DNA from: Bacteroidales bacterium
GTDB lineage: Bacteria > Bacteroidota > Bacteroidia > Bacteroidales > PXBB01
Reading direction: 5' to 3'
Length of the DNA: 64,000 nt
Assembly: GCA_028698995.1 (NCBI GenBank)
Contig: JAQVVM010000015.1
Coordinates: 1-64,000, forward strand
This document shows, one piece after another, positions 4,983-60,993 of the stretch; the first letter of the stretch is position 1; each line of letters starts with the position of its first letter. The notes under the pieces are model-generated. The model was not told the DNA's origin, searched no databases, and was given only the letters and a program-made list of their open reading frames with translations. The translations under genes were made by a program, and so were the position numbers.

Positions 4983-7586
4983 ATGAAGCGAAACTATTTT
5001 ATACTCCTATTTCTTCTCAGCCTGTTTCTTCTCAATGCTTGTTCAACCAAAAAAGACAAATGGATGAACAAAAAGTATCATAATTTACTTGCAAAATACA
5101 ATGGCTATTTTAACGGCTATGAAAGCTTAAAAGAAGGCGTATTGGAACTGGAACGCGGCCACGTTGATAATTATGACGATATCCTCCCCGTTTATCGTCT
5201 TGGTTCTGTTCAGCAGGCTCAGGGACAGTTCCCTAAAATGGACAGAGCCATCGAAAAAGCAGTCAAAATGATTCGTAAGCATTCCATGACTTTTAAAGGA
5301 GTTGAACATGTTAAGTGGGTGCAAAAAAGCTATTTGATGATAGGGGAAGCTAATTTTTATAAAAGGGAATATGAACTGGCTTCTGAAAGTTTTGATTTTG
5401 TCATAAGACTTTATAATTACTCACCAATCAAATATGAAGCCTACCTGCGTTCAGCAATTACGAATAATATTACCGGAAATTACGGTAAATCTGAAGCCAT
5501 GCTAGAGTTGTTAGAAAATGCAATTGAGGAAGGCAAACTCAACGGACGTCAGATTCACGAATTCCATAAAACGTCTGCAGATTATTATATCAGGACAGGT
5601 GATTTTGAAAATGCAGCTAAAAGCTTGACAGATGCTTTAAAAACAACAAGAAAAAAGAAAACAAAAGTAAGGTTGAATTATATACTTGGGCAAGTTTTTA
5701 TGCGTTCCGGCAATCTGGCCGAGGCCAGCAAAGCTTTTAACAAGGTGATAAGAATGAGTTCTCCTTATGACATGGAATTTAATGTGAAGATAAGTGCAGC
5801 CATGTGTTACGATGCTGCTTCGGGTGACAGTAAAAACCTTATTGAGCTGCTGACCAAGATGTTGCGAGATGATAAAAACAAAGATTATTTAGATCAGATA
5901 TATTTTGCCCTTGCACAGATTGCAATTAAAGATCAGGAAGTTGATCAAGCCATAGAATATCTTAAACTTTCAACTCAAAAAAGTGTTTCTAACGACAGGC
6001 AAAAAGCTATTTCGTTCCATACCATTGCGGAATTGTATTTTGAAAAAGCTGATTATTTAAATGCAGGAATTTTTTACGATAGTACAATGGCTTTCCTACC
6101 TACAGATTACAGAGAATACAGACAAATAGAAGCCAAACATAAAGTGCTCTCAGAATTGGTAAAAAACCTACAGATTGTTATTCTCGAAGACAGTCTGCAA
6201 AAGTTAGCAGGCATGAGCGAAAGAGAAAGAATGGCTATAGTTGATGGTATCATTGAAGAAATTGTTGCCGATGAAAGACGTATGCAGGAAGAAGAAAATG
6301 AAAGGATGCAGAGTCTAGCCCTACATGGTCAGAATCAAATGGGTATGCAACAACAAAATAGTGATGGAAAGTGGTATTTCTACAATCCCCAAGCTGTCAG
6401 TTTTGGATTTTCTGAATTCAGACGTAAATGGGGAGAAAGAAGACTTGAAGACATGTGGCGCCTCAGCAACAAGGAAATGGTGATGGACTTCAATGATGGT
6501 TTTACAGAAAACCAGTTGTCTGATTCAACAGGTGGAACGGCTTCCGGAGGACCAACAGATCCAAAAGACAAAAACACCTATCTGAAAAATATTCCTACTA
6601 CCCCCGAAATGCTCGAGAAATCCCATACTCGAATTATTGATGCTATTTATGCTATTGCTACTATTTATAAAGAAGGGCTAAGAGAATTAAACCTGTCCAA
6701 CGAATCTTTCGAGGAACTTTTAAGAAGATATCCGGATAGTAAATATACCCTGAACACCTATTACCACCTTTACAGAAATTACGCTCAACTAAACAATGTT
6801 CCAAAATCGGATTATTATAAAAACCTGATTCTAAACAACTTTTCCGACAGTGAACATGCCAAACTTATCAATGACCCTGAGTATATGCAAAAAATGGCAC
6901 AAACTCAAAACGAAGCAGAAGTCTATTATTCTGAAGTTTACAATGATTATGTGGCTAATAATTACAACAGCGCGATTATGAAAGCAGATATGGGAATCAG
7001 CCGTTTTGCAGGATCATCTACTGAAGCAAAATTTGCCTACATCAAAACACTTTGTATAGGAAAAACACAATCAAAAGAAGTTTTTACTCAAAGCTTAAAT
7101 GATTTTATGACAAAATATGGTAACAGTGACCTTGCACCTTTAGCTAAAAATATTTTGGATTACTTAGGCAATTCATCAACTGATTCAACCCAAACAACAA
7201 CTACCAGAACGGGGGATATTTATACCAAAAATCTTGAAACAATCCATTTTTTTGTAATGATTGTAGATGCTCAAAAAATAAATGTCAATCAGTTGAAGAT
7301 TAAACTTTCTAATTTTAACTCAGAGTTTCATCGTCTGAAAAACCTAACTATCAGCAATGTTTTTCTTGACAATGTCAAACAGATTATCACTATAGCAAAT
7401 TTTGATAATGCTTCAAATGCCATTAATTATCACAGTTCAGTCCTAAATAACAGAGAATTATTTTCTGATTATAGTGCAGCAGATTATACCACTTTTGTTA
7501 TTTCTGTTGATAATTATCCCGTATTTTATAGAGATAAAGATGTACAAAAGTACATGACATTTTTCAATGCTAATTATCCTCAATAA
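4983..7586 (+). CDS. porW: Type IX secretion/gliding lipoprotein PorW/SprE
   Basis: An 867-residue TPR lipoprotein matching the PorW/SprE family, a periplasm-facing outer-membrane lipoprotein needed for type IX secretion (it links to the PorK/N ring and translocon) and, in gliders, for motility. The signal peptide ends in a lipobox LLNAC with lipidated Cys20. The family signature follows at once: a lysine-rich segment and HNLLAKYNGYFNGYESLKEG. The middle is built of TPR helices (about 80-400), then a charged helical segment, a section with SFGFSEFRRKWGERRLEDMW, and a C-terminal domain. Length is normal. It sits alone behind its own promoter, divergent from the M23 operon, and is followed by the bactofilin. 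Two proteins with type IX sorting domains are encoded in this window, consistent with a working system. Confidence 0.9.
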   Translation: MKRNYFILLFLLSLFLLNACSTKKDKWMNKKYHNLLAKYNGYFNGYESLKEGVLELERGHVDNYDDILPVYRLGSVQQAQGQFPKMDRAIEKAVKMIRKHSMTFKGVEHVKWVQKSYLMIGEANFYKREYELASESFDFVIRLYNYSPIKYEAYLRSAITNNITGNYGKSEAMLELLENAIEEGKLNGRQIHEFHKTSADYYIRTGDFENAAKSLTDALKTTRKKKTKVRLNYILGQVFMRSGNLAEASKAFNKVIRMSSPYDMEFNVKISAAMCYDAASGDSKNLIELLTKMLRDDKNKDYLDQIYFALAQIAIKDQEVDQAIEYLKLSTQKSVSNDRQKAISFHTIAELYFEKADYLNAGIFYDSTMAFLPTDYREYRQIEAKHKVLSELVKNLQIVILEDSLQKLAGMSERERMAIVDGIIEEIVADERRMQEEENERMQSLALHGQNQMGMQQQNSDGKWYFYNPQAVSFGFSEFRRKWGERRLEDMWRLSNKEMVMDFNDGFTENQLSDSTGGTASGGPTDPKDKNTYLKNIPTTPEMLEKSHTRIIDAIYAIATIYKEGLRELNLSNESFEELLRRYPDSKYTLNTYYHLYRNYAQLNNVPKSDYYKNLILNNFSDSEHAKLINDPEYMQKMAQTQNEAEVYYSEVYNDYVANNYNSAIMKADMGISRFAGSSTEAKFAYIKTLCIGKTQSKEVFTQSLNDFMTKYGNSDLAPLAKNILDYLGNSSTDSTQTTTTRTGDIYTKNLETIHFFVMIVDAQKINVNQLKIKLSNFNSEFHRLKNLTISNVFLDNVKQIITIANFDNASNAINYHSSVLNNRELFSDYSAADYTTFVISVDNYPVFYRDKDVQKYMTFFNANYPQ

Positions 7587-13262: not shown

Positions 13263-13745
13263 CTAACAAATTTTCTTTCTCAACTGTTCTCTAAAATTCT
13301 CATAACCAAGTGTTTGCCAAAGTTTCTTTGCTCTGGTATTGTTTATAAGGCAATGTAGTTCAACATACTGCACCTTGTGTTTTTTAAAGAAATTATTAAT
13401 AATATAAGCTTCAAGAATTTTACTTACAGATTTCATTCTGTTACACTCTTCCACATATATGGACGAAATATATCCGTTCAGGCCCAAGGATGTAAAAGTG
13501 AAAAATCCCGGACGAATATCTCCGGCAATGAAACCCTGTATCTCATTTTCTTCTCTTGCAATGTAAATAATATGATAAGGGTCTGTGAGTTTTTCTTCAA
13601 AATAGTTAAGAAGTTTTTTAGTAATATTTTCATCGTATGTAAAATTAAATTCATTGCAATCGTATCGTAAATAGTTAATGAACTTCATATACAAATTAAC
13701 GAAAATAGGCAATTCTTCTTGTTTGAGGGTGGTAATTTGCATCAT
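13263..13745 (-). CDS. GNAT-family N-acetyltransferase
   Basis: A 160-residue cytoplasmic protein with the GNAT fold: beta-strand IIYIAREENEIQGFIAGDI, strand 4 GYISSIYVEECNRMKSVSKIL (motif A, where the usual R/Q-x-x-G-x-G/A loop is degenerate, reading CNRMKSVS), and the closing ELHCLINNTRAKKLWQTLGY segment, which is the classic motif B. It would transfer an acetyl group from acetyl-CoA to a small molecule or protein amine; the substrate is unknown. The gene starts 8 nt after the stop of the unrecognised protein upstream, and so appears to be the last member of the deoC-AOR operon. The altered acetyl-CoA loop lowers certainty about activity. Confidence 0.78.
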   Translation of the reverse strand: MMQITTLKQEELPIFVNLYMKFINYLRYDCNEFNFTYDENITKKLLNYFEEKLTDPYHIIYIAREENEIQGFIAGDIRPGFFTFTSLGLNGYISSIYVEECNRMKSVSKILEAYIINNFFKKHKVQYVELHCLINNTRAKKLWQTLGYENFREQLRKKIC

Positions 13746-13753
13746 TAAAAAAA

Positions 13754-14659
13754 TTAATTTGGTTCGTAGTTCTGAATTTGAACAAAATATTTTGGATCAG
13801 AATTTAAATAATATACTTGTGATGAACTTTGGTGTTGCTTATTATTATAAGTATGCTCTATTTTGTCAGTGAGTTCAAGTTTAGAGAAAAGAATGTTCAA
13901 AACTTTGCATGTACCACCAAAAACATGATACACTTTTGCAAATTCGCCAAAACATTTAAATTCATTTTCAGTTATGAGGCTTATTATTTGATTATAGCCA
14001 CCGGCTTCAGATATTAAAAACTTCTGAGCCATGATGCCCCTGCAAAAGGGGACATAGTGAACACCGGTTTTTGTAATTTTCTTACAACCGACAAAATTAG
14101 CAAAAGAAGCTTCCTTATTGGTGTCAGAAATATCAGGAACATAAAGCAATGTCTCATTTTCTTTAACAAATCCCCTTTTAAGTCCATTTTTTAAGATAAA
14201 TTTACTTGACCTATTTCGCAAATTACTTTCAAAAAAGACAAGTGAGATGTCTGAAAAATCCAAGCCATTGTAATTTAAAATTTCTTTGTAAGCTGGATGC
14301 AGCCTAAATTCTTTTTTAATAAACAAGCGCCCATTGTTATCAAGGCCCATGTCATTAATAAGAAAGGCTAAAGACGGATTAAGGTTTTTTTTTAGTGCGG
14401 AAATGTAAATTTTTACAGCAAAATCAAAAACAAAAGAAGTCAGTGTATTGGGTTTATGATAGATTTGTTTACCGTGCTGCTCAAGAGGATAATGACCCCC
14501 GTCAATAAGAATTTTATCTGTCAGTTTTTCGGAAACCAAAGAAAACAAATCACTCTGGGTTCTTAATGATTTCACATGACCTTCATTAATTAAAACATTT
14601 GAAAAATTATAATTCCATTTTTCACTCTGTATATCGTTAAAAAAATGGGTGTAATTCAT
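13754..14659 (-). CDS. Unrecognised protein in the AOR operon
   Basis: I do not recognise this 301-residue protein. I chose the ATG at 14659; the frame extends 13 codons further, but that would overlap the AOR gene. No signal peptide and no clear membrane helix, so probably cytoplasmic. It has repeated aromatic and basic segments and some short motifs that may be conserved: IDGGHYPLEQHGKQIYHKP (about 52-70), YVPFCRGIMAQKF (about 205-217) and FGGTCKVLNILF (about 252-263). These hold two cysteines and several histidines that could be catalytic or metal-binding. It is 19 nt downstream of the tungsten aldehyde oxidoreductase and 8 nt upstream of a GNAT, which suggests joint expression and perhaps a role in the same metabolism. 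No function is claimed. Confidence 0.75.
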   Translation of the reverse strand: MNYTHFFNDIQSEKWNYNFSNVLINEGHVKSLRTQSDLFSLVSEKLTDKILIDGGHYPLEQHGKQIYHKPNTLTSFVFDFAVKIYISALKKNLNPSLAFLINDMGLDNNGRLFIKKEFRLHPAYKEILNYNGLDFSDISLVFFESNLRNRSSKFILKNGLKRGFVKENETLLYVPDISDTNKEASFANFVGCKKITKTGVHYVPFCRGIMAQKFLISEAGGYNQIISLITENEFKCFGEFAKVYHVFGGTCKVLNILFSKLELTDKIEHTYNNKQHQSSSQVYYLNSDPKYFVQIQNYEPN

Positions 14660-14678
14660 TTTAAATATCAGAGAACAA

Positions 14679-16508
14679 TTATAGACCCAATTCTTCAAGT
14701 TTTTCTTTACAGGGTAAACCTTCTTTCGACCAGCCTCTGATGCTGTAATATTCCTGCAACAATGGCTGAAGGTCGATTTTTACACCTTTTGATTTTCCCG
14801 ACGGAAAAGGTTCATTTAAAATGCGATTTGGTAAGTTGTCATCTTTCTGAGTAAACCCTTCTCTATTGTTATACAATCTTTCTAGATTCCAGATCCTTTC
14901 TCCGGTTTTAAGGTATGCGTCAGCAGTAATCTCAACACCTGTAACAGCACTTAAGTATTGTGCATACAAACTTGGATTGAGCGCAAAGGCAGTAAAAAGA
15001 CAAACGCCCATAGAATCAATCATCGCGGTATTCTCCTGATACAGTTTAACCAACATGCTCTTTCCTTTACCTTCAAATCTGTCTATTGCGAAAGGAGTGG
15101 CAACACCTTCGGGTGCTACTGTATAGCAACGCAAATGGCAACCGCCTCTGTTGCTTGTGGCATAAGCAATACTCATTCCTTTAAAACCACGTGCATCATA
15201 AGCAGGAAGTTCAAGCCCCTTTACCTGCATGGCCAGTTCGGGATGTCCGTATTTTTCTGCCAGACGTTTACTACCCATGCTGATATATTTTCCAATACCT
15301 TCACCCTTGCCTGTTAGAATGCTGAGTTTTAGCATTGCTTCGGCATCACCGAATTTGAGTTCTCTGCCCAATGCATCATGAATAAGTTTCTGTGCATCAG
15401 CATCAAAATATCCTCTCTCCGAAAGCTCCATCGCGCATGCTATTGAGCTTCCCGCAGAAATGGTGTCTATGCCCAATTCATTGCAGTTGTAATTGGCGTT
15501 TACGATGGCTTCAAAATCACTGATGTTGCAAAGAGCTCCCAAAGACCACAAAGATTCAAATTCTGGCCCCTTACCGCTTCTTGTTGCTGTTTTGGATAAG
15601 TGTGCACAACCAATTGTGCATCCTCGGCAGGGCTCACTTTTAGTATAATATAATTCTTTAAAGGTTTCAGCAGAGATCGAGTCCACATCGTTAAAAACGC
15701 CTTCCTGGAAATTTTTTACCGGAAAAGCGCCATAACTATTGATAACCCTTGCCAGAGATGGTGTGCCATGTTCTTTTAACACGTCTTTTGTAAGAGGTGC
15801 TTCGCCTATGAAACTTTGCCAGCTTTTTTTAACCTCGTTGACTTTAGCTTCGTCTGCCACAGGTGTTTTATTTTCACCTGCCACAACAAGGGCTTTCAGG
15901 TTCTTGGAACCCATTACGGCTCCCATGCCTCCTCTGCCCAAAGCATGGTTTTTATCATTTATGATGCAGGCTAATAAAAGCTGTTCTTCTCCGGCCGGAC
16001 CAATGCACGAAACAGCTGCCTTTGATCCTGCTTCAGCAAGAAGTAAATCTGTTGTTTCCGGAATGTTTTTACCCCACAGATGACCGGCATTGCGAATCTC
16101 AACATCTTCTCCATTGACAAAAATATAACTGGGACCCGTTGCCTTGCCTTCGATGGCAATAACATCAAAACCTGTCGCTTTAAGAATAACTCCAAAGTGA
16201 CCTCCGGAGTTACAACCACCAACAGTTCCTGTCAGGGGTGATTTGGTTACAGCAGAAAACCGACTTGAAGTTGTGGCACCCGTACCGTTAAAAGGCCCTG
16301 TAACATAATAAATTGTATTGTTGGGACTAAGAGCGTCAGTTCCGGATGGAACTTCGTCATACAGTAGCTTTGTACCTAAACCTCTTCCACCAATGTAGTC
16401 TAATAATAGTTTTTCAGGAATATTTTCTTTCTGAACAGTTTTATTGCTGAGATTAATGCGAAGCAAACGACCATGATAACCGCCTTTAATTTTTTTATAT
16501 TCACTCAT
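14679..16508 (-). CDS. aor: Tungsten aldehyde:ferredoxin oxidoreductase (AOR)
   Basis: A 609-residue AOR-family enzyme that oxidises aldehydes to carboxylic acids with ferredoxin as acceptor, using a tungsten (or molybdenum) bis-pterin cofactor and a [4Fe-4S] cluster; oxygen-sensitive and cytoplasmic. The cluster ligands are visible as CRGCTIGC (C294, C297, C301) plus C503. The two pterin-binding motifs are DARGF (438-442) and DSMGVC (498-503), matching the family's DxxGL(D/C) pattern. The N-terminal domain GGYHGRLLRINL and GGRGLGTK is typical. Length is normal. Its gene follows deoC by 25 nt and precedes the unknown gene by 19 nt. DeoC makes acetaldehyde, a good AOR substrate, so coupling is plausible. 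It suggests anaerobic or microaerobic life. Confidence 0.95.
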   Translation of the reverse strand: MSEYKKIKGGYHGRLLRINLSNKTVQKENIPEKLLLDYIGGRGLGTKLLYDEVPSGTDALSPNNTIYYVTGPFNGTGATTSSRFSAVTKSPLTGTVGGCNSGGHFGVILKATGFDVIAIEGKATGPSYIFVNGEDVEIRNAGHLWGKNIPETTDLLLAEAGSKAAVSCIGPAGEEQLLLACIINDKNHALGRGGMGAVMGSKNLKALVVAGENKTPVADEAKVNEVKKSWQSFIGEAPLTKDVLKEHGTPSLARVINSYGAFPVKNFQEGVFNDVDSISAETFKELYYTKSEPCRGCTIGCAHLSKTATRSGKGPEFESLWSLGALCNISDFEAIVNANYNCNELGIDTISAGSSIACAMELSERGYFDADAQKLIHDALGRELKFGDAEAMLKLSILTGKGEGIGKYISMGSKRLAEKYGHPELAMQVKGLELPAYDARGFKGMSIAYATSNRGGCHLRCYTVAPEGVATPFAIDRFEGKGKSMLVKLYQENTAMIDSMGVCLFTAFALNPSLYAQYLSAVTGVEITADAYLKTGERIWNLERLYNNREGFTQKDDNLPNRILNEPFPSGKSKGVKIDLQPLLQEYYSIRGWSKEGLPCKEKLEELGL

Positions 16509-16533
16509 TTTATATTGGTTTTTAGGTTTCTAT

Positions 16534-17484
16534 TTAAAAATCTTTGTGTTTGCGGAATTCTTTATGTTGACACACCTGACAACGTTTGTTGCTGTATTCT
16601 CTCAAATCAACCCTGTGTTTTGATGTATGATGGTAAGGACAAATGATACAAGGAATAATACCTGCTTCAACCCAGCCTTCAGTGTTGTGTAAGAGCCAGC
16701 CCATCGTAGAAATAATGGCTAAGGGTCCGCTGGAACCAAACCTGAATTTATCGGGCGTTTGCAAAGAAGGGTCTTTAGCAGCTGCCCACATCAATCGCAT
16801 GGCTGTCATAGCATCTGAAATACCACCTGAAGCTTTGACACCTTTTGTGTTGCCTACAACTTGTCGCATAATCCACATGTGATCGGGCAATGCACCAAAA
16901 GCATCCATGCCTGTTGAGTTCTTAATAAAATCGGCTTTTGATTCCGCTACAATTTCGGAAATAGCCCATACTTCTTCCTCTGTGAGTTCTGATGAACGAA
17001 CAATAACTTTTACCAATTCTCCGTCAGCGGCCTGACAAACAGCATTAATTTCATCTAAAGCATATTTATGATCACGCTTAAAACGTCCTACATTTATTAC
17101 CATATCAAGCTCCATTTTCCCTTTCCCTTCGCCACGTAATTCGCGGTTTTTTTTGACAACATGCTCTGTCTGTTGGGCTTTTGAGTCTATGTCAATCTTT
17201 CCTAAAGGAAAATCTATAACATAACAATTTTTAACACCACTGCCTTTAAGTAATACCGGCAAAATATCAGCCGATTCAACAGGATTGACACAAACTGAGG
17301 CACAATGATGCGTAATAGCCCACTCAGCCATTTTTTTCATCTTGGGCTCCTGAGTGTCGGCTTTCAGGTCTGTTACATCAATAAAATGAGCTAGTTTTTC
17401 GGGTGTAAATCTCTTGATTAACTGAATAAGTTCCTCTTTATTAATATCAACCAAAGGAGGTCTGTTTGGAATAAATTGTGACAT
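16534..17484 (-). CDS. deoC: Deoxyribose-phosphate aldolase with Cys-rich tail
   Basis: DeoC splits 2-deoxy-D-ribose 5-phosphate into acetaldehyde and glyceraldehyde 3-phosphate (deoxynucleoside breakdown). The class I aldolase residues are present: Asp127 in MELDMVINVG, the Schiff-base Lys188 in ADFIKNSTGM, and Lys217 in GVKASGG. At 316 residues it is longer than the usual 220-260 aa; the extra length is at both ends. The C-terminal tail (about 275-316) has two CxxC pairs (CIIC at 279-282, CQVC at 302-305) plus histidines at 285, 286, 290 and 307, resembling a metal-binding ribbon. It is first in the operon with AOR 25 nt downstream. The tail's role, structural zinc or contact with a redox partner, is inference. 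Confidence 0.93.
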   Translation of the reverse strand: MSQFIPNRPPLVDINKEELIQLIKRFTPEKLAHFIDVTDLKADTQEPKMKKMAEWAITHHCASVCVNPVESADILPVLLKGSGVKNCYVIDFPLGKIDIDSKAQQTEHVVKKNRELRGEGKGKMELDMVINVGRFKRDHKYALDEINAVCQAADGELVKVIVRSSELTEEEVWAISEIVAESKADFIKNSTGMDAFGALPDHMWIMRQVVGNTKGVKASGGISDAMTAMRLMWAAAKDPSLQTPDKFRFGSSGPLAIISTMGWLLHNTEGWVEAGIIPCIICPYHHTSKHRVDLREYSNKRCQVCQHKEFRKHKDF

Positions 17485-17532: not shown

Positions 17533-17540
17533 CAAAAATA
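17533..17540 (-). promoter_or_regulatory. Putative -7 element of the deoC-AOR operon
   Basis: On the minus strand this reads TATTTTTG, matching TAnnTTTG, about 50 nt before the deoC start at 17484. No convincing -33 TTG was found at 19-21 nt, so confidence is limited. Confidence 0.4.
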
Positions 17541-34212: not shown

Positions 34213-34220
34213 TAGATTTG
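34213..34220 (+). promoter_or_regulatory. Putative -7 element of the nucleoside phosphorylase gene
   Basis: TAGATTTG fits TAnnTTTG, 21 nt before the ATG at 34242. The longer frame would start at 34218, inside this element, so 34242 is the better start. No clear -33. Confidence 0.45.
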
Positions 34221-34241
34221 TGTAAAAATTATATAAAAAAC

Positions 34242-35114
34242 ATGAAAAGAATAGCGGAATCAGAACTTGTTTTAAATCCGGACGGGAGTATATATCATAT
34301 TAAACTCCGCCCCGAACATATTGCTAAAGACATCATAATTGTTGGAGATCCAGGCAGGGTAGATCGTATATCAAGGCATTTTGACAAAATTGAATTTAAA
34401 ATTCAAAATAGGGAATTTATAACCCATACGGGCTCCTATAAAGGAAATCCTATTACAGTATTAGCAACAGGCATAGGAACAGACAACATAGACATTGTCA
34501 TAAATGAGCTGGATGCCATTGTTAACATTGACTTAGAAAAAAGAGAAGTGAAAGAAAATCACACCTCTTTAAATATAGTTCGATTGGGCACATCCGGTGC
34601 TCTTCAGCCTGATGTACCGGTGGACTCGGTGGTTCTTTCCACACATGGATTAGGTTTAGATGGTATGCTTAATTACTATGCACAAACCAATAATATCTTT
34701 GATAATGAAATTTCTGAAGCCTTTATTAAACACACCTCATGGCTAGACACTCTAGCTTATCCTTATACTGTAAAAGGCTCAGAAATTTTAGCTAAAAAGA
34801 TAGACAACAACTATCACAAAGGAATTACAGCTACATCACCCGGTTTTTATGGACCTCAGGGACGTATCCTTAGATTGGGTACTGCTTTGCCTGATTTGAA
34901 TAAATATTTGGGTAGCTTTACATTTAAAGGACATCGTATTACTAATTTCGAAATGGAAACATCTGCATTATATGGCCTAGCGGGTTTACTTGGCCATAAT
35001 GCCGTCACTGTATGTGCCATTATTGCCAACAGAACAATTCAACAATTCAGTAAAGATTATAAGAAGACTGTAGATATTTTAATTGAACAAGTTTTGCATA
35101 ATTTGTTTTCTTAA
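34242..35114 (+). CDS. Nucleoside phosphorylase, uridine phosphorylase-like
   Basis: A 290-residue cytoplasmic enzyme of the NP-I (PNP/UDP) family, splitting a nucleoside with phosphate into base and ribose 1-phosphate. Visible motifs: phosphate-binding IIVGDPGRVDRIS near the N-terminus, THTGSYKGNPITVLATGIGTDN, VRLGTSGALQPDVP, and the nucleoside-binding NFEMETSALYGLAGLLGHNAV with the catalytic-site Glu-Met-Glu. The pattern leans to uridine phosphorylase, but purine specificity is not excluded. Start argued from the promoter at 34213. It abuts the next gene (TAA then ATG with no gap), so the two are likely coupled. It fits nucleoside salvage together with DeoC. Confidence 0.9.
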   Translation: MKRIAESELVLNPDGSIYHIKLRPEHIAKDIIIVGDPGRVDRISRHFDKIEFKIQNREFITHTGSYKGNPITVLATGIGTDNIDIVINELDAIVNIDLEKREVKENHTSLNIVRLGTSGALQPDVPVDSVVLSTHGLGLDGMLNYYAQTNNIFDNEISEAFIKHTSWLDTLAYPYTVKGSEILAKKIDNNYHKGITATSPGFYGPQGRILRLGTALPDLNKYLGSFTFKGHRITNFEMETSALYGLAGLLGHNAVTVCAIIANRTIQQFSKDYKKTVDILIEQVLHNLFS

Positions 35115-57565: not shown

Positions 57566-58684
57566 ATGAAAATCTGTTTTATCAGCCTAAAATCTTACCC
57601 ACTTTTTAAACCTGCAATAAATGGGATGCATGGTGGGGCTGAAGTACAAATTAGCCTTCTGGCAAAACACCTTGCAGAAAATACCACCTTTGATGTCAGT
57701 CTTATGTGTGCCGACTATGGACAAAAGAAAATAGAACTTCATGGCAAACTGAAAATTTTTAAAACTTTTCCCTTTAATCTTTTCACCCCATTCAAATATG
57801 CTGTTTTTTTATTCGTTTTTTTTAAAATCAATGCAAATGTTTACATACAACGGACATTAACCCCATACTCATTTATCATTGCCCTGTTGTGCAAATTATC
57901 CGGTAAAAAATTTGTTTACATGGTAGCTCACGACAGTGAACTTAATGGCAAAGATATGTTATATGGTTCCTTAACAGGGCGCTTTCTGACTCACAAATTA
58001 TTTGTGTTTTCCTCTTTAGTTGTTGTTCAAAATAGTTTTCAAAAGGAAATATTTGAAGTCCTTTTTAAGGGAACACCATGTGTGGTGTTAAAAAAAGCTG
58101 TAGAAACTCCTGAATTGAAAGTTGACAAAAAGAAATATGACTGCATCTGGCTGGGAAGAGCAGAGCACTGGAAACACCCTGAGCTTTTTTTAAAACTTGC
58201 AGCGATGAATCCCGAAAATAATTTCTTAATGGTATGCCCACATCTATCATTGTCCTACAGCCGAAAAGCTTATAAAAGTTTACAGTCCGCCGCAAAGGCC
58301 ATCCCCAATCTCACTTTTATCACACATCTGACACATAATCTTGTTTTTGAAAAGCTCTCCGAAAGTCGAATTTTTTGCTCAACATCCGATTGTGAAGGAG
58401 ATTTGCCAATGAGTACTCTTGAGGCTGCGGCAATGGGGTTGCCGGTTTTACTTTTATCTATAGATAACTATGTTGATGATCCTGATAAAAATGGGATAGG
58501 TCTGCATTTCAAAGGTTCAGTAGAAAAACTGAATACACAACTCTGCCTTTTACTTAAAGATCAGCAAATGTATCATGAATACAGACTAAAATCAGAAGAT
58601 TATATCCATTTGCATCACAACAAAACCAAGATTTATAATAAATTTGAAGACATTCTTAAAGATCTAACAAAAAAATTAAAATAA
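57566..58684 (+). CDS. Glycosyltransferase family protein (GT4-like)
   Basis: A 372-residue GT-B enzyme. The N-terminal domain begins ICFISLKSYPLFKPAINGMHG and GGAEVQISLLAKHLAEN. The C-terminal domain has DCIWLGRAEHWKHPELFLKL, and the acidic pair lies in CEGDLPMSTLEAAAMGLPV, giving EX8E rather than the usual EX7E, so activity should be checked. The last base of its stop codon is the A of the xdhC start, so the two are coupled. No donor or acceptor inferred. Confidence 0.87.
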   Translation: MKICFISLKSYPLFKPAINGMHGGAEVQISLLAKHLAENTTFDVSLMCADYGQKKIELHGKLKIFKTFPFNLFTPFKYAVFLFVFFKINANVYIQRTLTPYSFIIALLCKLSGKKFVYMVAHDSELNGKDMLYGSLTGRFLTHKLFVFSSLVVVQNSFQKEIFEVLFKGTPCVVLKKAVETPELKVDKKKYDCIWLGRAEHWKHPELFLKLAAMNPENNFLMVCPHLSLSYSRKAYKSLQSAAKAIPNLTFITHLTHNLVFEKLSESRIFCSTSDCEGDLPMSTLEAAAMGLPVLLLSIDNYVDDPDKNGIGLHFKGSVEKLNTQLCLLLKDQQMYHEYRLKSEDYIHLHHNKTKIYNKFEDILKDLTKKLK

Positions 58685-59445
58685 TGGAAAGTTTTTATCA
58701 TAAATTATTAGAAGCAGAACAAGGCGAAAAACAAGCAGTCATCTGCATTGTTACAAAAATACATGGCTCCGCACCGGGAAAACCGGGCATGAAAATGCTT
58801 GTATATGAAGATGGCAGTATAACAGGTACTGTTGGCGGAGGAGCCATAGAAAAAGATGTTATTGATAAAGCCCTGAGCATGATGCAAACAAGTACGCCTC
58901 TTTACTTTTCATTCAATCTGAAAACAGACTTAAATATGGATTGCGGCGGTGGTGCTGACGTTTATATCGAACCCGTTAATCAAAAGAAAAAACTATACAT
59001 TTTTGGTGGCGGACACATTGGTAAAGCTCTTTCTGAATTTGCATTTACGCTAGGATTTGATGTTATTGTTATTGATGAACGCGAAGGAATTTTTAATGAT
59101 TATAAAAATGAAAAGCTGTTATTAATCAACAAGCATTTCACTGAGGTCATTCATGATATAAAATTTGATAAAAAATCTTATTTTGTCATAGTAACGCATA
59201 AACACATCCACGATGCTGATATTCTTAAATTGCTCTGTAACAAGACCAGTGCTTATCTTGGTATGATTGGAAGCAGAACAAAAGTAGAGAAAATTATCAA
59301 AGACCTGGTAGATCATAATTATCTTACAGAAGAGGCATCAAAACTAATAGACTCTCCAATCGGTATAAAATTCAAGGCTATTACCCCCAATGAAATAGCT
59401 ATAAGTATTTTAGCCAAATTAATTGATGTGAGAAATTCTTTGTAA
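58684..59445 (+). CDS. xdhC: XdhC-family molybdenum cofactor maturation protein
   Basis: A 253-residue XdhC/CoxI protein. These bind the molybdenum cofactor, promote its sulfuration and insert it into the large subunit of xanthine dehydrogenase-type enzymes. N-terminal domain: GSAPGKPGMKMLVYEDGS, then TVGGGAIEKDVIDKAL (glycine-rich, conserved). C-terminal Rossmann domain: LYIFGGGHIGKALSEFAF, then MIGSRTKVEKI and PIGIKFKAITPNEIAISI. Complete. Its start overlaps the glycosyltransferase stop by one base, and the xdhA-type small subunit follows 90 nt later. A large molybdenum subunit for it to serve is not in the window. Confidence 0.9.
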   Translation: MESFYHKLLEAEQGEKQAVICIVTKIHGSAPGKPGMKMLVYEDGSITGTVGGGAIEKDVIDKALSMMQTSTPLYFSFNLKTDLNMDCGGGADVYIEPVNQKKKLYIFGGGHIGKALSEFAFTLGFDVIVIDEREGIFNDYKNEKLLLINKHFTEVIHDIKFDKKSYFVIVTHKHIHDADILKLLCNKTSAYLGMIGSRTKVEKIIKDLVDHNYLTEEASKLIDSPIGIKFKAITPNEIAISILAKLIDVRNSL

Positions 59446-59467
59446 AATTTAATTCAGCTATTTTGAG

Positions 59468-59475
59468 TAAATTTG
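59468..59475 (+). promoter_or_regulatory. Putative -7 element of the xdhA gene
   Basis: TAAATTTG fits TAnnTTTG, 61 nt before the start at 59536. The nearest upstream TTTG gives a 25-nt spacing, so support is weak. Confidence 0.3.
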
Positions 59476-59535
59476 TTGAAAAAAATCATGTTCCTTCCTA
59501 TTTTGTAAATTGAATCTAATTATTAAACGCATAAA

Positions 59536-60993
59536 ATGGCTATAAAGAACCAAACCATATCGTTTGTTTTAGACGGTAAAATTGCAGAAATCGATTTTGG
59601 TCGTGTCGGTTTAAAACCCACTCACACCTTGTTACATTATCTGCGCTCACTTCCCAATCATAAAGGCACCAAAGAAGGCTGTGGTGAAGGTGATTGCGGG
59701 GCCTGTACGGTAGTTGTAGGCGAAGCAACCGGTAATCAAATAGAATACAGGGCTGTGGATTCCTGTCTTGTATTTTTACCCATGATACATGGAAAGCAAA
59801 TTGTTACTGTCGAAAACCTTGAAACGATAGTTAATGGGAAAGTAAAATTACATCCTGTTCAACAGGCAGTTGTTGAAGAAAACGGTACCCAGTGTGGTTT
59901 CTGTACACCTGGAGTTGTCATGTCGTTATACGCATTACACTTGAATAAAAGTAAGCCCCTTGTCAAGGACATCAAGGATGCCTTGTCTGGAAACTTGTGC
60001 AGGTGCACAGGATATAATGCTATTGTTAAAGCGGCTCAAAAAGCATCTGTTCTAAAGGAAAGTATCACCATTCCTGTAAAAGAAAACAATAACACGCTTA
60101 AAATGCTGCATCTGATCAATAAAAACAAAAGTACCATTCATATCGAAACCGAGTCAAAGAATTATTATAAAGTATTTTCAACAGATGAGGCTCTGGTATT
60201 AAAAAAGAAATTCCCGGAAGCACTTATTATTTCAGGTGCTACCGATTGCGCCCTGAGGGTTACAAAAAAACATGAGGTCATCCCATTAATAATTGACATT
60301 TCAGATATTGAGGAACTTAAAAAAATTAAAAAGCAAAAGGAAGGCTATTTAATAGGAGCATCGGTACATATAGAAGAAGTTAAAAATGCGGTTAAAAAAA
60401 ATTTCCCTGCTTTGTTCGATATGTTGTCTGTTTTTGGCTCAAAACAGATTCGCAACATGGCCACCTTAGGCGGTAATATTGGCTCAGCCTCACCTATTGG
60501 AGATACTTTACCTGTATTTTTTGCCTATGATGGAAAAATTGTACTGAAAAATTTAGAAAGTGAGCGGACTTTGCCTCTGAGAACTTTTATTGAGTCGTAC
60601 AGAAAAACCAAAATACGCTCTGATGAAATTATCACACACATTTATTTACCTCTGCCAAAAGATGGCGTTTTTTTTAAATCTTACAAGATATCCAAACGCA
60701 AAGAACTTGACATTTCTACCGTAAGTGCTGGTTTTAAACTGGAACTCGACAAAAAGAACAAGGTGAAGGAAATTGTATTAGCCTATGGAGGTATGGCAGC
60801 TTATACAAAACGTGCAGTAGCCACCGAAGCGTTTCTTGTTGGTAAAACATGGACTGAATCAAATATTATGAAAGCCTCTCTCATATTGGAAAAGGAATTT
60901 GCGCCCATTTCCGATGCCCGTGCAGGTGATGAAATGAGAAGAATTGCAGCAAAAAATTTGTTGTTGAAATTCTGGTTAGATGTTCAAGTTTGA
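59536..60993 (+). CDS. xdhA: Xanthine dehydrogenase small subunit (2Fe-2S/FAD)
   Basis: A 485-residue XDH small subunit of the XdhA type. [2Fe-2S] plant-type domain with C49, C54, C57 and C77 (EGCGEGDCGACTVV, then SCLVF). Second [2Fe-2S] domain with C120, C123, C155, C157 (QCGFCTPGVV, GNLCRCTGYNAIV). FAD domain (about 205-375; ISGATDCALRV, GSKQIRNMATLGGNIGSASP) and a CO-dehydrogenase flavoprotein C-terminal domain. It passes electrons from the molybdenum site to NAD. The partner large subunit normally adjoins it, but here the next gene is a glycosyltransferase. It is complete at both ends, so not a fusion or truncation. Confidence 0.93.
   Translation: MAIKNQTISFVLDGKIAEIDFGRVGLKPTHTLLHYLRSLPNHKGTKEGCGEGDCGACTVVVGEATGNQIEYRAVDSCLVFLPMIHGKQIVTVENLETIVNGKVKLHPVQQAVVEENGTQCGFCTPGVVMSLYALHLNKSKPLVKDIKDALSGNLCRCTGYNAIVKAAQKASVLKESITIPVKENNNTLKMLHLINKNKSTIHIETESKNYYKVFSTDEALVLKKKFPEALIISGATDCALRVTKKHEVIPLIIDISDIEELKKIKKQKEGYLIGASVHIEEVKNAVKKNFPALFDMLSVFGSKQIRNMATLGGNIGSASPIGDTLPVFFAYDGKIVLKNLESERTLPLRTFIESYRKTKIRSDEIITHIYLPLPKDGVFFKSYKISKRKELDISTVSAGFKLELDKKNKVKEIVLAYGGMAAYTKRAVATEAFLVGKTWTESNIMKASLILEKEFAPISDARAGDEMRRIAAKNLLLKFWLDVQV

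Follow-up and report, generated by a model that had tools for sequence, protein, structure and literature searches.

A conserved gene pair of deoC and a tungsten-type aldehyde:ferredoxin oxidoreductase in Bacteroidales, with a DeoC subfamily carrying a four-cysteine tail

Background

The locus considered here raises the question of why a gene for a DeoC-type aldolase should stand directly before one for a tungsten aldehyde:ferredoxin oxidoreductase (AOR), and whether the two genes that follow belong to the same functional unit. It lies in a 64,000-nucleotide stretch of contig JAQVVM010000015.1 from a Bacteroidales bacterium, referred to below as the window. A preliminary description, made from the sequence of the window, had read all four genes as one operon, in which acetaldehyde released by DeoC is oxidised to acetate by the AOR, so that electrons from nucleoside breakdown are recovered in reduced ferredoxin; the product of the third gene had been proposed as a maturation or partner protein of the AOR.

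Results and discussion

Gene content of the locus

The features of the locus, in the order of reading, are as follows.

17533-17540, minus strand: candidate -7 promoter element of the Bacteroidota type, TATTTTTG, ahead of deoC (pattern match only)
16534-17484, minus strand: deoC, class I DeoC-type aldolase of 316 aa with a four-cysteine C-terminal tail (TIGR00126)
14679-16508, minus strand: AOR, tungsten aldehyde:ferredoxin oxidoreductase of 609 aa (AFOR_N and AFOR_C)
13754-14659, minus strand: orphan protein of 301 aa counted from ATG (coding by codon bias; outside the conserved unit)
13263-13745, minus strand: GNAT-family acetyltransferase of 160 aa (Acetyltransf_1; outside the conserved unit)

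Examination of the open reading frames confirmed the four genes on the minus strand between 13263 and 17484, separated by gaps of 25, 19 and 8 nt. A -33 element to accompany the candidate promoter is not clear by eye, and scans of the sequence around the three internal gaps gave no further Bacteroidota -7 motif. This promoter pattern is compatible with a single transcript, without proving it. An Rfam search near the operon returned no match to an RNA element or riboswitch.

The genome of the window is of the Bacteroidales type and has three AOR-family genes, of which the other two (L002, G000 C64; L003, G000 C117) encode proteins only 27-28% identical to the deoC-linked AOR. Elsewhere in the window, a T9SS PorW/SprE lipoprotein (4983-7586; NF052312, 672 bits) is consistent with a Bacteroidota genome. 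The genome also has a molybdenum-hydroxylase system, since a xanthine dehydrogenase small subunit (58684-60993; TIGR02963, 530 bits, above the cut-off) adjoins an XdhC-type maturation factor.

A two-gene unit conserved across Bacteroidales

Searches with the AOR covered 295 Bacteroidales genomes as well as genome contigs. The deoC-linked AORs, about 60-63% identical to that of the window, form one clade with a support of 100/100, and deoC lies directly upstream on the same strand in all 11 distinct members (the window and 10 further loci), with gaps of 19-191 nt. The pair spans at least six families of Bacteroidales. A correlation between the pairwise identities of the AORs and those of the DeoCs (r = 0.956, permutation p = 1e-4) indicates that both proteins travel together. 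The same association is seen in their distribution: the Cys-tailed DeoC subfamily occurs in 7 of the 295 genomes, six of which also have a clade AOR, always adjacent, and all six genomes with a clade AOR have the Cys-tailed DeoC.

Outside this clade the two genes stand apart. The fetched flanks of more distant AORs (35-49% identity) contained no deoC, nor was one found beside any other AOR examined. A TIGR00126 match of some kind is present in 262 of the 295 genomes, and no AOR was found near ordinary deoC at any of 63 loci (0/29 non-Bacteroidales, 0/34 Bacteroidales); where a genome has other AORs and a listed ordinary deoC, these lie on different contigs. The linkage of deoC to the clade AOR is far beyond chance, whereas that of the orphan and GNAT genes is seen in the window genome only. 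The downstream flank is readable in seven other deoC-AOR loci, with the next gene convergent in six, and neither the orphan nor the GNAT gene is present in any of the seven. Flanking genes are dtd, an MFS transporter, a polyprenyl synthetase, polA and similar genes, or are unknown; a conserved third partner gene was considered and rejected, as the outer flanks differ between groups. The conserved unit is deoC plus AOR, and the orphan and GNAT genes are local extras: the first half of the four-gene order recurs from family to family, but the full order does not.

For the 301-aa orphan, no curated match was found in Pfam, NCBIfam, PDB or PHROGs, and nothing credible among 60 relatives, 395 Bacteroidota genomes, phages, plasmids and viral contigs; a single match with E = 0.003 has stops inside. 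By codon bias (0.21 bits per codon in its own frame, no more than 0.01 in any other) it nevertheless looks coding; its AF2 model, with a pLDDT of 30, is uninformative. Its proposed role as a maturation or partner protein is counted against, because the gene is missing from all seven other readable loci. The GNAT protein scores 34.8 bits on Acetyltransf_1 (cut-off 20.7), and tblastn gave no match to it in related deoC-AOR loci. Both would be lineage-specific genes appended downstream of the pair.

Both enzymes retain their catalytic residues

The AOR has both expected domains (AFOR_N, 254 bits; AFOR_C, 451 bits) and matches PDB 9mqx and the Pyrococcus furiosus AOR, 1aor, over its full length. 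By alignment to the latter, the cluster cysteines Cys294, Cys297, Cys301 and Cys503 and the active-site Glu318 and His458 are invariant in 10 of 10 sequences, so that the catalytic pair, Glu313/His448 in P. furiosus numbering, is kept. The roles of the [4Fe-4S] cysteines and of the catalytic Glu and His are well established, but the substrate of the AOR cannot be read from its sequence.

The DeoC of the window scores 152.4 bits on TIGR00126, against a curated cut-off of 117.3, and its AF2 model matches DERA folds in PDB (best E 3.9e-16). The catalytic residues Lys188, Asp127, Lys217 and Cys65 (K167, D102, K201 and C47 in E. coli) are conserved in 12 of 12 subfamily members, and Ser238 is also kept; the roles of Lys167, Asp102, Lys201 and Cys47 in DERA (E. 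coli numbering) have been described (PMC8403123). Five of the six pair genomes have no TIGR00126 match besides the linked DeoC, which for this reason probably fills the usual DeoC role.

The placement of a Cys-tailed deoC always directly upstream of a clade AOR suggests that the AOR uses the aldehyde made by DeoC. Given the conserved adjacency in at least six families and the intact catalytic residues of both enzymes, a hand-off of acetaldehyde from DeoC to AOR, which we infer, with good support, from the pairing and from known chemistry, is the simplest reading. The substrate of DeoC would be a 2-deoxy sugar phosphate, with deoxyribose 5-phosphate the likeliest candidate, and its cleavage would give glyceraldehyde 3-phosphate and acetaldehyde; the linked AOR, presumably with tungsten, would oxidise acetaldehyde to acetate and pass two electrons to ferredoxin. 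The effect would be to remove a toxic aldehyde while saving low-potential electrons. With moderate confidence we favour a two-gene operon, probably co-transcribed, in which the aldolase-derived aldehyde is oxidised by the AOR with ferredoxin and to which the orphan and GNAT genes have been appended. The coupled path of the preliminary description accordingly holds up as regards the conserved pair and its catalytic residues; its nucleoside source has lost ground, as set out below.

The origin of the aldehyde

Neither deoB nor the TIGR02644 thymidine/pyrimidine nucleoside phosphorylase gave a match over cut-off in the six pair genomes, and 16 of 20 genomes with ordinary deoC from other parts of Bacteroidota have deoB. 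Nucleoside breakdown as the source is weakened by these results. The control genome of Bacteroides ihuae, however, has deoC without deoB and without TIGR02644, so the two absences cannot be charged to the pair alone, and the argument that a missing deoB proves a non-nucleoside role was rejected. Bacteroidales as a whole may share this gap, with unrecognised enzymes taking over the missing steps; in the pair genomes a PGM-type enzyme may replace DeoB. Some nucleoside phosphorolysis is possible, because PF01048 phosphorylases are present in all six. One uridine-phosphorylase-like PF01048 protein lies in the window itself (34218-35114), about 17 kb from deoC, and scores 117.6 against the TIGR01718 cut-off of 280.3. 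A PF05014 deoxyribosyltransferase/hydrolase was considered as an alternative feeder and discarded, being over cut-off in G278 only.

The lack of deoB and TIGR02644 matches would also be expected if the linked DeoC cleaved a different 3-hydroxyaldehyde, possibly not derived from nucleosides, and the AOR oxidised a resulting aldehyde; the hand-off would then be real and the nucleoside link wrong. Two features of the protein speak for this: substitutions near the active site that distinguish the subfamily from all 61 ordinary DeoCs compared (T168N, K/F172M, L240P and T72Y in E. coli numbering), and the four-cysteine tail that stands in place of the ordinary C-terminus. Against the substitutions it must be said that many ordinary DeoCs have Phe, not Lys, at position 172, and that loss of Arg207 was rejected as a mark of the subfamily, as this residue varies, with the same loss, in ordinary Bacteroidales DeoCs. 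The retention of the Schiff-base and relay residues and of Ser238, the score over the TIGR00126 cut-off in a protein that is the sole DeoC of most pair genomes, and the possibly order-wide absence of deoB all argue for the usual substrate. We regard a different 3-hydroxyaldehyde as unlikely.

The cysteine tail and an unpaired lineage

The tail comprises 54 residues (263-316), with cysteines at C279, C282, C302 and C305; the pattern C-x2-C-x19-C-x2-C is invariant in 12 of 12 subfamily members and absent from ordinary DeoCs. Tyr259 at the C-terminus takes part in catalysis by E. coli DERA (PMC8403123). This residue is missing in the subfamily, where the tail ends in Phe in 11 of 12 members. Its absence does not exclude DERA membership, since the C-terminal Tyr is not found throughout the family and many ordinary Bacteroidales DeoCs also lack it.

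A genome from the same family as that of the window, G001, the nearest relative in which this DeoC occurs, has a Cys-tailed DeoC without an AOR beside it, and no AOR at E <= 1e-100 was found in this genome, which is 76% complete. Compared with the window DeoC, its core is the closest of all (79%) and its tail the most diverged (39%). Among the residues invariant in all 11 AOR-paired DeoCs, it keeps 112 of the 119 core positions, as against only 10 of the 19 tail positions (Fisher p = 1.6e-5), with all four cysteines still in place. Such decay in an AOR-less genome is what would be expected if the tail were needed for the AOR, and this single unpaired lineage hints that the tail may be tied to the AOR. 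A more specific proposal, which we put forward only tentatively and consider doubtful, is that the tail is a metal-binding docking module (zinc or Fe-S) that would hold the aldolase on the AOR and let acetaldehyde reach the tungsten site directly. In G001 the convergent neighbour of deoC (L044, 7766-8629) encodes an XdhB-like FAD subunit of a molybdenum hydroxylase (xanthine or aldehyde), and the contig ends soon after.

The retention of DeoC without AOR in G001 could also be cited for the view that the two genes are co-inherited neighbours with no shared substrate, the AOR being a general aldehyde scavenger, as AORs are broad-specificity aldehyde oxidases. Neighbours of this kind would hardly remain adjacent down to 60% AOR identity in six or more families while their outer flanks change and while other AORs and other deoCs stay unpaired, and we consider this explanation improbable. 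A reverse operation, in which acetate is reduced by the AOR and the resulting acetaldehyde is joined by DeoC to glyceraldehyde 3-phosphate, giving deoxyribose 5-phosphate, is chemically conceivable, both reactions being reversible, but is very improbable, as with no deoB found there is no known route from deoxyribose 5-phosphate to deoxynucleosides. For the favoured reading, oxidation of DeoC-derived acetaldehyde by the AOR, the points on the other side are the lack of deoB and TIGR02644, the substitutions in the DeoC pocket and the occurrence of DeoC without AOR in G001.

Significance

A search of the full-text literature, with most subscription papers outside its scope, found no description of a deoC-AOR operon. 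What is reported here is a conserved pair of known enzymes, previously unremarked in the literature searched, together with a DeoC that has a distinctive tail. The pairing supplies a concrete substrate hypothesis, aldolase-made acetaldehyde, for one clade of bacterial tungsten enzymes, a group in which roles are mostly a matter of guesswork. A DeoC subfamily is defined as well, the tail of which may bind its partner. If the favoured reading is right, some anaerobic Bacteroidales would retain electrons at the ferredoxin level when they break down deoxy sugars, rather than release or reduce the acetaldehyde.

Comparison with known systems

The deoC-linked AORs share with the canonical tungsten enzymes (P. 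furiosus 1aor; 9mqx) both domains, the [4Fe-4S] cysteines and the catalytic Glu and His, but they constitute a separate clade within Bacteroidales that is tied to deoC. Similarly, the linked DeoC has the fold and the K167, D102, K201 and C47 of the enterobacterial enzyme, which is encoded in a deoC-deoA-deoB-deoD operon. Unlike that of E. coli, which adjoins deoA, deoB and deoD, the window deoC adjoins an AOR gene, in pair genomes where deoB and TIGR02644 were not found, and its product has, in place of the C-terminal Tyr of the E. coli protein, a four-cysteine tail with Phe at its end. The nearest precedent for the pathway is Pelobacter carbinolicus, for which the genome paper (PMC3543383), in the portions consulted, lists four putative acetaldehyde-oxidising AORs and outlines how deoxyribose is converted to acetaldehyde by way of deoB and deoC; those portions treat the AORs in connection with the metabolism of ethanolamine, ethanol, acetoin and 2,3-butanediol and describe no deoC-AOR gene pair. 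A conserved two-gene arrangement involving deoC is likewise seen with the Family 4 A-domain encapsulins of Thermococcales (PMC8346489), where the partner of deoC is a shell-fold protein, whereas in Bacteroidales it is an AOR.
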